Counted from the first letter of the stretch, positions 48,727-56,324 are shown. The stretch: DNA of 64,000 nucleotides from an uncultured Gammaproteobacteria bacterium (GCA_947258755.1 CAMYJO010000001.1:62001-126000); one strand, 5' to 3'. Notes: a model not told the origin generated them from the letters alone. Numbers and translations are program-made.

Positions 48727-48834
48727 AAAAACCGGGTCAGAGAACAATTGTTGCCAAAAACCGGGTCAGAGAACAATTGTTGCTAATATTAGAGAATATT
48801 GTTCTCTGACCCGGTTTTTCCCTGACCCGGTTTT
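48727..48834. repeat. GGGTCAGA hairpin element, copy A
   Basis: Two tandem 29-base units begin at 48727 and 48756. The second pairs as a perfect 22-base inverted repeat (arms 48756-48777 and 48798-48819, core GGGTCAGAGAACAAT), with a 20-base centre. A further partial CTGACCCGG copy follows. It is nearly identical over about 58 bases to copy B at 52321. Confidence 0.92.
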
Positions 48835-50130: not shown

Positions 50131-50655
50131 TCAATAACGCTGCAATATTTCAATCAGAAAAAGATTCAGCCCCGGATTTGAATCTTCTAATCCAACATTG
50201 GACATATGTTGCAGTCGAAAGCCCAGCTCCCATTGCTTATTCATCTCAAACTTTACGCCGATATGACTGGTAAAATGTAAGTTGCCGCCCATATCGATTG
50301 CATTGTAGCGTGATTTTTCTATATAAGTTGGCGCGATACCCAGATTCCAGGACACTCTCGAAGTAGGTCTTATTAGTTCAATTTGCGGCCCGACTGCGAT
50401 CACGATACTTTGATTGCCTGGACCATTTAGATGATTAAGATCAACATTCAAGGCGGTCTGAATAATGTCACCATTTTTCCTTGTCCGTTTCCAAGGCAAT
50501 GCATAGGTAGCAAATATACCGACTTGCCAGAAATCCTGATCGATACTACCCAGTACACCACTGCCACCTCTCAGACCAAAGGCATGCCAATCATCGGCAA
50601 AAACTGTCGCTGGCGTTAAAATTAGCAATGTGAGTACGCTGATGCATTTCTTCAT
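50131..50655 (-). CDS. PagL-like lipid A 3-O-deacylase
   Basis: This 174-residue outer-membrane beta-barrel protein starts at ATG 50655 with GGAG seven bases upstream. Signal peptide: MKKCISVLTLLILTPATVFA. The barrel ends with LGFRLQHMSNVGLEDSNPGL, matching the PagL active-site His-x-Ser-Asn-x-Gly region (His and Ser near 152-154), and a C-terminal aromatic residue. PagL removes the 3-O acyl chain of lipid A. The lpxL-like gene lies 3 kb away. Confidence 0.8.
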   Translation of the reverse strand: MKKCISVLTLLILTPATVFADDWHAFGLRGGSGVLGSIDQDFWQVGIFATYALPWKRTRKNGDIIQTALNVDLNHLNGPGNQSIVIAVGPQIELIRPTSRVSWNLGIAPTYIEKSRYNAIDMGGNLHFTSHIGVKFEMNKQWELGFRLQHMSNVGLEDSNPGLNLFLIEILQRY

Positions 50656-50904
50656 ACAAAGACTCCAATGTTGTGGCGCTTTGTCTGCGCCATACAGGAA
50701 GGAAAAAAAAACGGGGCGGGCCAAGCTTTCATGATGAAAGTACTAAATAATTATCAATAAAATATCTATTTTTTATCATTTAAACCATCCATTTAGACCT
50801 TAATGAGGGCTATAGACCATCAGGGTATTTTACATCCAATTGTATTCGCCTACTAACTTATTTTCGTTATTGAGGAAATGAAGTGAAAAAAGGGGGAGAG
50901 ATAA

Positions 50905-51816: not shown

Positions 51817-52326
51817 TTAATTTAAATTAATCCGCCAGGCATCTGGACCTATCTCTGTAGTCGTAAACGAAACAAGCATAAATTTTGAGATAACAGACAT
51901 ATTGGTTGTAGTATGCATGCTTGGCTTGAGAGTGACAAACTCACCACAGCCAGCTAGCGCTACTGGGATCAATAGCTGATCGGCCAGATGGAGGCCGACC
52001 GGTACTTCAGCATTAATATAACGTTGTACTTGTATAACGACTTCGTCGCCTACTCGTTCAGCGGGCGTCCCGCGTCGACCAAAAGCTGAAAAACATTCTG
52101 TGACCTGTTCACTTTTAATGATCACCGAAACAACATTACCAGGCCCCATGGCCTTAGTGTTCATCTGTAAATGTAGATGATCGCCAGGATAGGCAAGACG
52201 TTTGTGAATTACGGCCAGTTCCCGCTCTGCGATATGTCTGGGTAAGTTGGCGATAAGTGCTTCGGCATATTGCTGCAGGATAACGCCACGATCAGTCAAT
52301 GCAATAGGCAGTAGTCGTGCAAAAAC
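51817..52326 (-). pseudogene. rtcA: 5'-truncated RNA 3'-phosphate cyclase (rtcA)
   Basis: About 168 C-terminal residues of RtcA remain: LIANLPRHIAEREL, MGPGNVVSVII, and VGLHLADQLLIPVALAGCGE followed by FVTLKPSMHTTTNMSVISKF. A complete RtcA has about 340 residues. Upstream the frame enters copy B of the GGGTCAGA hairpin, which supplies the residues FSDPVFA. No part of the N-terminal half occurs further upstream. The fragment probably has no activity. The full protein makes cyclic 2',3'-phosphate RNA ends. Confidence 0.82.
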
Positions 52327-52437
52327 CGGGTCAGAGAACAATTGTTGCTAATATTAGAGAATATTGTTCTCTGACCCGATTTTTGGAATATTGTTCTCTG
52401 ACCCGATTTTTGCGATTTTTGCTGACCCGGTTTTTCC
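52321..52437. repeat. GGGTCAGA hairpin element, copy B
   Basis: The segment 52321-52378 matches copy A (48756-48813) almost base for base, including the GGGTCAGAGAACAAT arm and the central TAATATTAG. The right arm carries one change (CCCGA for CCCGG), and two more partial copies (TTGTTCTCTGACCCGA and CTGACCCGG) follow. It truncates rtcA. Confidence 0.92.
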
Positions 52438-52668: not shown

Positions 52669-55473
52669 CTACATTTCTATAGGCGTTGAATCTATTTCAT
52701 ACGGCCATCCTTTTATTCCTCCGCTCATAGACAGGGCATTGAAATTTCGCTCTCGTAACAGGAATGCCCCAGCCTTACTACGACGACCACTACGACAATA
52801 CACAATATATGTTTGATCCGGATCCAAAGTATGAACATCCCAACGTAGCCTATCCAATGGGATCAGGGGTGCTCCCGGGATCCTGGATTCTTCATATTCC
52901 ATATCATACCGGCAATCGAGCCATTTGGCTTCGCCACTATTTACCATTTCTGCGGCTTGTTCTGGTGTTACCTCTTCAACCAACCCTGGCGTAAGCAGTT
53001 CATCAAAATCCTTTTTATCCAACACTAATAGCTTGCCAGGCGTGGTCATGGTAATCGTGGCATTTCGATATGCGTTTTGTAGTAATGCCTCCTCACCAAA
53101 GGCATCACCAGGCCCAAGTTTTGATACACAACTGGTTTCTCCTGTGAATGGGTCGGTACGCATTACTTCAGCCTCGCCACTATCCACCAGGTAATAACAG
53201 TCACCTTCTTCACCTTCAGTAATTACCGTTTCACCTGCCTGCACATCTTTTGGATACATGCGTTCGAATGCAGTTTTAACGTTTTCCAGAGGTACTTCAT
53301 GAAAAATACTGACTTGTTTAACTAGTGACATACGGTGCTTTAATTCAGGGTCTTTTTCAATGTCATCAGAAAATTGCTGGCTCCACCCGAGTAGCTCATC
53401 AATACTGTTCGCATTGATGCTCACATATTTGATATCGCTAATAGCTCTTGCACGTATGCGATTCGCTGCCCCCATAAATGCAAAACCACCGTCTACATCA
53501 GCAGGTTTTAAATTCCATGTATAACTTTTGTCATTTTTCCCCGGTACCGACCAGGTGCGCTGCGCTTCCAGTTCACCTTCAACTAATATTAGATGATCAT
53601 GCATTTCTTCTGTTTCTTGTATAATAATATCACCTGCTTGAGCAGTACTTACCCCTTTTTGCTCGAGTAAGCTTAACAACTGATCTTTTGATAATGGGCC
53701 AAGTAGCCGTGTGGATCTTAATCGTTTAGCAAGTGCTTCCATAATTTTATCCTCTCCAGCTTTAAATGAGTATTTCTTTTTCATGCTATCAGTCTCTGCC
53801 ATTCGCGCCGGGTATAGCAGTTCTTTCATGGGGTGATCAAGATCTTGACGAATAATATGCTCTTCACCAAATTCATCAAGACAGCCTGATTTTTCCAGTA
53901 CATCCATAACATTGCTACGAGTGACGTAGATAAAGACTTCGTCATCCTTTTCCTGCCTTTTCTTTACCTCGGCTGAAATCAGGGCTACGCCGGGCACGTC
54001 AATATAGGTAATATGATCCGTTCTTAATAATAATATATTGGAATCATCTTCTTCTCCCAGTTTCGCCATGGCTCGTTCTACATGGCGTACTGACCCAAAA
54101 AAAAGATTGCCGTCTATTGTAAATACTGTAACTGGCCTGCCATCACGGGCTGTATGTTTTTCAATGACCATATTTGGTGTCGAGGCATACCAAAGATACA
54201 CCAGCAGAGAAAGCAGTAAGCCTGTAAACACACCCGAATTGAGACCCAATGCCAAAGCAATTATTAATGTACACAAAAAAATCAGTTTCTCTTGCCTTGT
54301 CCTGAGAATTTTCCTGACACCAGATAGATCTATCAGCCCATATCCTACGAGAATCAACGTTCCTGCTACGGCTGCCATCGGTATATAGGCGATAAGCCTG
54401 GATCCGGAAAATACAATCAGGGCAAGAAAAATAGATGCGTACAACGCAGCCATAGGTGTGCGGGCACCTGCATCATAATGGGCTGCGCTCCGATTAAACG
54501 AACCCGAACCGGCAAAGCTTGAGAGAAAGGACGCAACCATATTGGACAGACCCTGGCTTATAATTTCCTGGTTTGTATTTATAATCTGCCCTGACTTCTC
54601 AGCAAGCGAACGTGAAATAACCACGGTCTGCATGAGGCCCAGAAAAGCGATAGCAAAAGCGCTAACAAGTAATTCCTTAATAACATACAACGACTCAAGG
54701 TCAAAAGTAGGTACGGATAAAGGCAAAAGTGATATTGAAAGATAACCGATTAGTTCAATTTGTGTTGTCGCCGGCCCATAGACCATGTTCAGCAATTGGG
54801 CGACGAGCAATCCTGCCAGAACTGCAATCACAAGTGAGTAACGCTTGAAATATTTGCGCGCGACAAGACCGGTCAATACAGTCATACCACCCGTTATCAC
54901 GGCATAGATATTTGCACGTGGAATATCATGCACAAGTTGATATAACTTGATAAAAAATGGTTCGTCCAGATTTGACAAAACCCCTAGAAAGGCACTTCCA
55001 GCCGACACTATAATAATGAGTGCAACAGCAAGCACAATGGCCGAAATCACTGTATGTGAAATGAAGTCCAGAACGGCGCCTAATTTCAGCAGGCCCAGCA
55101 CGAACTGGATTACCCCCACCATCAGTGTAAGAGCGAGCACAAAGCCAATGTAATACTCATTACCAATACTTGCAAAAGGCGCTACAGAGTAAGCTATAAG
55201 AACGCATACTGCAGTATTCGGCCCAGATAGCGTATGCCATGATGAGCCCCATAAAGACGCAATAATCACAGGAAAAATACTCGCGTAAATACCATACTCC
55301 GGTGGCATGCCCGCAAGCGTTGCCAGCGCAATTGCCTGGGGAAGAATCAGAATGGCGCCAATCACTCCAGCTTCCATATCCGGTCGAAAACTATTCTTTT
55401 TTACCGCAGGCAACCATTGTAAAAACGGCAATAAACGATAAAGCGTCATCGTTTTTGTAGACTGATTATTCAT
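52669..55473 (-). CDS. SulP transporter fused to STAS, two cNMP-binding domains and rhodanese
   Basis: This 934-residue protein is a five-part fusion. First comes a SulP anion permease (about 20-430, with GAILILPQAIALATLAGMPP, SGPNTAVCVL, and QGLSNMVASFLSSFAGSGSF) and a STAS domain (about 445-560). Two cyclic-nucleotide-binding domains follow, at about 581-700 and 714-825. The second has a phosphate-cassette-like FGEEALLQNAYRNATITM with Glu and Arg. A rhodanese domain ends the protein (about 838-930, active-loop YCRSGRRSKAG with Cys near 893). The start overlaps the tsdA-like stop (TGATG). Sulfate or another oxyanion is the likely substrate, inferred from SulP and tsdA. The CNB-CNB-rhodanese part occurs separately in other proteobacteria. 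Confidence 0.9.
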   Translation of the reverse strand: MNNQSTKTMTLYRLLPFLQWLPAVKKNSFRPDMEAGVIGAILILPQAIALATLAGMPPEYGIYASIFPVIIASLWGSSWHTLSGPNTAVCVLIAYSVAPFASIGNEYYIGFVLALTLMVGVIQFVLGLLKLGAVLDFISHTVISAIVLAVALIIIVSAGSAFLGVLSNLDEPFFIKLYQLVHDIPRANIYAVITGGMTVLTGLVARKYFKRYSLVIAVLAGLLVAQLLNMVYGPATTQIELIGYLSISLLPLSVPTFDLESLYVIKELLVSAFAIAFLGLMQTVVISRSLAEKSGQIINTNQEIISQGLSNMVASFLSSFAGSGSFNRSAAHYDAGARTPMAALYASIFLALIVFSGSRLIAYIPMAAVAGTLILVGYGLIDLSGVRKILRTRQEKLIFLCTLIIALALGLNSGVFTGLLLSLLVYLWYASTPNMVIEKHTARDGRPVTVFTIDGNLFFGSVRHVERAMAKLGEEDDSNILLLRTDHITYIDVPGVALISAEVKKRQEKDDEVFIYVTRSNVMDVLEKSGCLDEFGEEHIIRQDLDHPMKELLYPARMAETDSMKKKYSFKAGEDKIMEALAKRLRSTRLLGPLSKDQLLSLLEQKGVSTAQAGDIIIQETEEMHDHLILVEGELEAQRTWSVPGKNDKSYTWNLKPADVDGGFAFMGAANRIRARAISDIKYVSINANSIDELLGWSQQFSDDIEKDPELKHRMSLVKQVSIFHEVPLENVKTAFERMYPKDVQAGETVITEGEEGDCYYLVDSGEAEVMRTDPFTGETSCVSKLGPGDAFGEEALLQNAYRNATITMTTPGKLLVLDKKDFDELLTPGLVEEVTPEQAAEMVNSGEAKWLDCRYDMEYEESRIPGAPLIPLDRLRWDVHTLDPDQTYIVYCRSGRRSKAGAFLLRERNFNALSMSGGIKGWPYEIDSTPIEM

Positions 55474-56324
55474 CAGTCAAAAAGACCTTCCAGAATACCT
55501 TTTCTTGGATCCCAGGGACGAATCTGTAAATTAATAAAAGTGGCAAGATCAAGCGCCTCCTGGTCAGTTAAAGACCAGTCCTGACCCAGAGGCATATTAG
55601 CCTTGAGGAAACCGGCGAGAAGATTATTGCGTGCCAGTCCAGCACCCTTGTTGTATGAATCCATTCCCCACACTGGAGGGAAAATATATCCACCGCCTTT
55701 TTTCTTCTGACCTTGCCCGCCAGCGCCATGACAACTTGCGCACTTGGTTTTATATATATCTCCTCCCCGGGTTGGATTTGCATCGTAACCGGTTTTAACC
55801 ACTTGCGGATAACCTCTGCCAGGCAATTCCACCCCAATAGGTACGCCCCTGGATAGAAAGTGAATATAGGAGACCAGGGCCCGCATCTCCGGTGCATCCA
55901 ACGCGGGTGAAAAACCGTTCATACTGAAACGGAAACATTGCTGAATACGTTCCTCCAGTGTATTGCTGCGATCATTCTTGGCCAGGTATGCCGGATACAT
56001 TCCAAAGGCACCCCATAATGGTGCCGAGTTTGCTTTTCGTCCTGAGTCCATGTGGCAATTGGAGCAGGCAAGATTATTGCCCGAATATCTGCGAGCATAT
56101 ATATAGGTCTCAGTGAATATTTTTTTGCCCAGGCGGACATCATCACCGTACTTGTCATTGGGAATTTCGTCATCACTCGGTGGCGTATGATAGCTTGAAT
56201 TACCTTTTAAATGGTCTGACAGTGCACGAGTGTTTTCTGCCGCTAAACAGGTAAATGCAAATGGTATGGATATAAGAATATGTAAAATCGAAGTTACACA
56301 GGAACTTGTTAGAAATCGGGTCAA
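55473..56324 (-). CDS. tsdA: TsdA-like dihaem cytochrome c (thiosulfate dehydrogenase)
   Basis: This 283-residue exported dihaem cytochrome has a signal peptide (cleaved near CLAAEN), haem motifs CSNCH (87-91) and CASCH (195-199), a conserved Cys130 in ERIQQCFRFSMNG, YIFPPVWGMDSYNKGAGL and KANMPLGQDWSLTDQEALDL. This pattern fits TsdA, which oxidises thiosulfate to tetrathionate and has a His/Cys-ligated haem. Cys130 may be that ligand. The start is TTG 56324 with GGGAGG five bases upstream. It is coupled to the SulP fusion. A SoxA-like or other cytochrome role is not excluded. Confidence 0.75.
   Translation of the reverse strand: MTRFLTSSCVTSILHILISIPFAFTCLAAENTRALSDHLKGNSSYHTPPSDDEIPNDKYGDDVRLGKKIFTETYIYARRYSGNNLACSNCHMDSGRKANSAPLWGAFGMYPAYLAKNDRSNTLEERIQQCFRFSMNGFSPALDAPEMRALVSYIHFLSRGVPIGVELPGRGYPQVVKTGYDANPTRGGDIYKTKCASCHGAGGQGQKKKGGGYIFPPVWGMDSYNKGAGLARNNLLAGFLKANMPLGQDWSLTDQEALDLATFINLQIRPWDPRKGILEGLFD

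Follow-up and report, generated by a model that had tools for sequence, protein, structure and literature searches.

TsdA proteins such as those of A. vinosum and C. jejuni, and the TsdBA protein of structure 5lo9, have two CxxCH haems, a catalytic Cys that is an axial ligand of the active-site haem, and a Met ligand to haem 2 that is strictly conserved, next to which C. jejuni TsdA has an Asn and A. vinosum TsdA a Lys (PMC5146829). The active-site residues of the A. vinosum enzyme include Arg109, Arg119, Ser127 and Arg224 (PMC4423706). Among SulP transporters, AtSULTR4;1 requires Glu347 for proton-driven sulfate transport, and its E347Q variant keeps ~40% of the activity with nearly all of the response to a pH gradient gone; BicA is also reliant on an acid at this position, which most mammalian exchangers do not have (PMC8298490). 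Stand-alone proteobacterial proteins of ~355 aa with two CNB domains followed by a rhodanese are common in the class studied here. The entry of sulfur compounds into the cytoplasm of sulfur oxidizers is described as poorly understood in PMC11582611, where SoxT and YeeE-like (TsuA-type) importers, which belong to a protein family unrelated to SulP, are proposed to import sulfur to the cytoplasm for oxidation.

The window we analyzed is a stretch of 64,000 nucleotides from an uncultured Gammaproteobacteria bacterium (GCA_947258755.1 CAMYJO010000001.1:62001-126000), and it holds a gene pair on the minus strand that combines relatives of these systems. The tsdA-like gene (55473..56324) has a TTG start with GGGGAGG a few bases upstream, and encodes an exported dihaem cytochrome c of 283 aa of the thiosulfate dehydrogenase / tetrathionate reductase type. 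The final base of its TGA stop codon (55473..55475) is the A of the next gene's start codon, giving the one-base overlap TGATG. That second gene (52669..55473) encodes a fusion protein of 934 aa, consisting of a SulP transmembrane domain (residues 28-398, 54280..55392; Pfam Sulfate_transp, E=2.1e-71), a STAS domain (residues 446-538, 53860..54138; Pfam STAS, E=5.7e-9), a degenerate first CNB domain (about residues 584-706, 53356..53724), a second CNB domain with the phosphate-binding cassette FGEEALLQNAYRNAT (residues 741-826, 52996..53253; Pfam cNMP_binding, E=4e-24), and a rhodanese domain with the active-site loop C893-R-S-G-R-R (residues 835-922, 52708..52971; Pfam Rhodanese, E=1.6e-15). 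Both reading frames and their overlap are thus present in the sequence where an earlier note on this DNA had placed them, and the domain order it gave is recovered by Pfam for all but the first CNB, which is supported by a profile match and an AlphaFold model; its suggestion that the two proteins are made together is backed by the conservation of the overlapping pair described below. The arrangement differs from known TsdA in that the tsdA-like gene overlaps a SulP gene, and from AtSULTR4;1, BicA and SLC26Dg in the C-terminal CNB-CNB-rhodanese extension. It also differs from TsdBA pairs and fusions: the pair in the window has no tsdB-like gene next to it, whereas a gene for a TsdB-like dihaem c4 cytochrome precedes tsdA in four loci where SulP is unfused (L079, L081, L082, L083).

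In the cytochrome, Pfam finds a SoxA-TsdA_cyt-c domain and a C-terminal cytochrome c domain. The best PDB match is TsdBA (5lo9, 201.4 bits), and A. vinosum TsdA scores 176-179 bits (178.8 for 4wqc), with SoxA (1h31) far below at 57.6 bits. The haem motifs are C87-C90-H91 and C195-C198-H199, Cys130 (in RIQQCFRFS) corresponds to the catalytic Cys ligand of the active-site haem, and Met244 is the haem 2 ligand. Across the TsdA-like proteins encoded next to SulP, the active-site Cys is kept in 17/17 sequences that cover the site (L085 stops short of it) and the Met in all 18. By alignment, Arg126, Ser134 and Arg232 occupy the positions of Arg119, Ser127 and Arg224 in A. vinosum TsdA; the differences from that enzyme are Lys116 in place of Arg109 and, next to the haem 2 ligand, Asn243 in place of Lys, which is the C. 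jejuni arrangement. Since the mutants described in PMC5146829 follow no simple rule, the reaction direction of the cytochrome is not predictable from these residues. The sequence match and the active-site residues bear out the TsdA identity that had been proposed, with the grouping itself drawn from bit scores, as the TsdA tree has no SoxA root and carries A. vinosum TsdA on a long branch. The possibility that the protein is a SoxA is ruled out by the bit scores and the haem 2 Met.

The earlier note had named the conservation of this neighborhood in other genomes as a test of its reading, and the neighborhood is conserved. A search of 369 genomes of the class (threshold E<=1e-40) found 42 TsdA-like places in 38 genomes, and when their coordinates were matched with those of a SulP search in the same genomes, 15/42 were directly upstream of a SulP gene, which is fused to a CNB-CNB-rhodanese tail in 8 cases and without the tail in 7. 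More fused pairs were found in genome contigs, including those of a Thiobacillaceae MAG and an Ectothiorhodospiraceae MAG. The stop and start codons overlap in 11/11 fused loci examined, by 1 base in 8 and by 4 bases in 3, while the spacing in unfused loci ranges from -1 to 75 bases. Adjacency is kept across 11 families, and we conclude that the pair is real and conserved. A chance neighborhood is ruled out by the recurrence in many genomes and the conserved overlap. One genome (G125) has a fused SulP (L092) and no TsdA; there, the gene is directly downstream of the pyruvate dehydrogenase aceE and E2 genes.

The linked copies of both genes also group apart from the unlinked ones. The SulP tree gathers the 26 unlinked proteins into a single group (100/100), and the linked proteins fall on the opposite side, joined by L092 as the single fused protein without TsdA. 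In the TsdA tree, linked and unlinked members mix at a single fork, on the long branch leading to A. vinosum TsdA. Linked and unlinked labels change 2 times per tree, compared to shuffled means of 12.3 for TsdA and 14.4 for SulP; the long branches of L080, L092 and A. vinosum TsdA make some placements in these trees unsure.

The linked SulPs differ from their relatives at the site of proton coupling. Like AtSULTR4;1, BicA and SLC26Dg, the window protein has the SulP and STAS fold (Pfam Sulfate_transp and STAS), and it retains the anion-site residues Gln46 and Arg328 (Gln112 and Arg393 of AtSULTR4;1); against the NCBIfam sulP subfamily model it scores 270 bits, under the 380-bit cut-off. At the position of AtSULTR4;1 Glu347, however, the acidic residue is absent and the codon is CAG for Gln282 (54628..54630, minus strand). 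This position is Gln in 17/18 TsdA-linked SulPs and Leu in 1/18, and it is Gln in L092 as well, compared to Glu in 48/49 unlinked SulPs, comprising 26/26 of the closest and 22/23 of the more distant ones, the latter including three other SulPs from the window's own genome that keep Glu. The only examined unlinked SulP with Gln at the coupling site (L118, in G082) also has Lys in place of the anion-site Arg. A second difference from AtSULTR4;1 is at Tyr116, where the window protein has Leu, as do 16/18 linked SulPs, compared to Phe in 26/26 close unlinked ones and in the two remaining linked ones. Since the coupling glutamate is replaced by glutamine, we read the window SulP as a putative anion exchanger instead of a proton symporter, and we infer that the TsdA-linked SulPs are exchangers without proton coupling. 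Because a single branch divides linked from unlinked SulPs, the change may be one inherited event rather than the result of repeated selection, but even if it was inherited once, it still predicts exchange over proton symport. The loss of the coupling glutamate was not part of the earlier note and is new here.

The tail of the fusion protein has the same three-domain order as the stand-alone CNB-CNB-rhodanese proteins, with the difference that the window copy is fused behind STAS. The first CNB was not detected in the Pfam search of the fusion protein, but a profile match to the PKG tandem CNBs (profile positions 17-274) backs it, and the best PDB matches to the AlphaFold model of the tail are tandem-CNB proteins. 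The model is moderate (pLDDT 78, pTM 0.57) and reaches TM-scores of only ~0.3 against whole tandem-CNB structures, so that it speaks for the folds of the individual parts but not for how they are arranged. The FGE..R phosphate-binding motif is lost from the first CNB, whereas all 14 homologues compared share FGE, Arg803 and the Ala-Thr of the second. In the rhodanese, the catalytic Cys893 is retained in the loop CRSGRR, which is of the CRxGx[RT] type expected of an active rhodanese; CRxGxR loops point to thiosulfate as the sulfur donor. In two genomes (G112 and G228; L087/L088), the fused rhodanese has lost the catalytic Cys (YSRNERRS), and a stand-alone CNB-CNB-rhodanese gene with an intact CRSGRR loop is directly downstream of the pair, so that both forms are adjacent. 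Rhodanese activity has apparently shifted to the neighboring gene in these genomes, which argues that the activity matters. We also noted the CNB-rhodanese module within very long open frames (~1300-2000 codons) in many genomes, for example at G000:C1:26528-27292.

The genomes that have the pair are mostly equipped for sulfur oxidation. In the window's genome, SoxB, SoxY and DsrA score above their cut-offs and there is a dsrA-dsrB-dsrE-dsrF-dsrH-dsrC-dsrM run of the oxidative type. DsrA is present in 13/15 genomes with SulP-linked TsdA and 8/23 with unlinked TsdA (Fisher p=0.0025), or in 9/11 and 6/18 when counted by family (p=0.02), which allows for relatedness only in part. SoxB does not separate the two sets of TsdA genomes (14/15 linked and 16/23 unlinked, p=0.11), and one genome with the pair (G039) has none of SoxB, SoxY and DsrA over cut-off. 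A rhodanese facing the cytoplasm beside a carrier makes sense for a cytoplasmic pathway that takes sulfane sulfur.

Genes around the pair are in keeping with this setting. In three unfused loci (L079, L081, L083), the order is TsdB-like c4 cytochrome, TsdA, SulP, a periplasmic DsrE-like protein and a SoxB-like protein; the last scores 195 bits against a 550-bit SoxB cut-off, so it is a paralogue and not SoxB itself. Genes of the DUF6691 or YeeE type accompany the pair on its upstream side in L079, L081 and L082. A DsrE-like gene adjoins the pair in L025 and L093 and is directly downstream of it in a genome of the same genus (G002), while no DsrE-like partner was found near the pair in the window. 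In G228, SoxY and SoxZ follow the pair and the stand-alone CNB-CNB-rhodanese gene. The Sox and Dsr genes, together with the SoxYZ, SoxB-like, DsrE-like and TsdB-like neighbors, agree with the sulfur-oxidation setting that the earlier note had suggested.

Our preferred reading, held tentatively and at somewhat less than even odds, is that the two genes form a sulfur-oxoanion unit in which TsdA chemistry, electroneutral anion exchange, hand-over of sulfur by the rhodanese to Dsr, and gating by the second CNB domain are combined. In the periplasm, the exported TsdA would convert thiosulfate to tetrathionate or the reverse, passing electrons to a c-type cytochrome, a step consistent with its active-site residues. 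The SulP would then act as an electroneutral exchanger, taking in thiosulfate or TsdA-made tetrathionate against sulfate or sulfite, and thiosulfate (or tetrathionate) in for sulfate out appears to be the most likely mode. With its catalytic loop present, the rhodanese tail could take sulfane sulfur from the incoming thiosulfate and pass it to cytoplasmic carriers of the TusA/DsrE type for oxidation by reverse Dsr, and the resulting sulfate would leave through the same exchanger. The second CNB might gate transport on a cyclic nucleotide; this control is the weakest part of the proposal, because the cassette is kept in just one of the two CNBs. Several observations count against the preferred reading: the pair is present in G039, where no Sox or Dsr marker scores over cut-off, the fused SulP of G125 occurs without TsdA, and the rhodanese tail is missing from seven linked SulPs. 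The broader idea that a distinct SulP subfamily evolved with TsdA as a thiosulfate/tetrathionate exchanger that is not proton-coupled, with its own rhodanese tail feeding Dsr and control by cyclic nucleotides, is possible but on the unlikely side.

Other readings differ mainly in what the SulP would carry. It could be a tetrathionate importer acting in series with TsdA, with cytoplasmic thiols and the rhodanese splitting the tetrathionate. The gene overlap suggests such a hand-over of product, Leu in place of the aromatic Tyr116 in most linked SulPs may fit a larger anion, and import of thiosulfate would put the carrier in competition with TsdA for substrate, which makes tetrathionate the better fit in this respect. 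However, the CRxGxR loop indicates a thiosulfate donor, Phe is kept in two linked SulPs, and we found no SulP carrier of tetrathionate in the literature searched; we regard this as unlikely. Somewhat less likely still is a SulP that solely exports the sulfate or sulfite from Sox and Dsr oxidation, leaving the rhodanese tail to detoxification or sensing. Sulfate is the classical SulP substrate, most of the linked genomes belong to Sox and Dsr oxidizers, and either exchange or facilitated export would go well with a missing coupling glutamate. However, sulfate is not a product of the TsdA reaction, and this reading explains neither why the SulP is paired specifically with TsdA nor why the rhodanese loop is of the thiosulfate type.

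The remaining two alternatives both seem improbable to us. If the SulP were a sensor of sulfur anions (a transceptor) instead of a bulk carrier, with the anion and a cyclic nucleotide controlling the rhodanese or a partner, this would agree with the stand-alone CNB-CNB-rhodanese frames of ~355 residues and with the FGE and Arg that all 14 homologues keep in their second CNB. However, the anion site retains Gln46 and Arg328, as a carrier would be expected to, and linked SulPs of the unfused kind lack this tail. Carriage of bicarbonate or another non-sulfur anion, with the place beside tsdA incidental, draws on the diversity of SulP substrates, which are hard to predict and not readable from sequence, and on a match of the BicA model to the transmembrane domain, although this match has 130 bits where the cut-off is 880. 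Against it, adjacency is kept across the 11 families with linked copies of both genes grouping apart, and the acidic residue of BicA at the coupling site (PMC8298490) is absent here.

As judged from sequence, all of the parts are of known kinds; the earlier note knew of no described system with this layout, and we found no description of the TsdA-SulP arrangement, the linked SulP group or the coupling-site change in the open-access papers searched. The pair, in which a well-studied periplasmic enzyme is connected to a sulfur transferase and a defined membrane carrier, offers a good candidate for how sulfur compounds cross the membrane. If the broader idea of a SulP subfamily evolved with TsdA is true, the TsdA-linked SulPs would supply an import route that is missing for Sox/Dsr sulfur oxidizers. 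The replacement of one residue at the coupling site makes the transport mode of the carrier sharply and cheaply testable.

The window has other features as well. Six exact copies of GGGTCAGAGAACAAT occur in both orientations in two small clusters (48734-48812 and 52328-52404), compared to 0.1 expected by chance, and they look like mobile palindromic repeats. On the minus strand, we noted a PagL-type lipid A 3-O-deacylase (50131-50724; Pfam E=1.6e-18) and an RNA 3'-phosphate cyclase of which only the C-terminal part is present (51817-52341; 174 aa, Pfam RTC insert and the end of RTC). The 5' end of the cyclase frame is at a repeat cluster, and this frame is probably a truncated gene.
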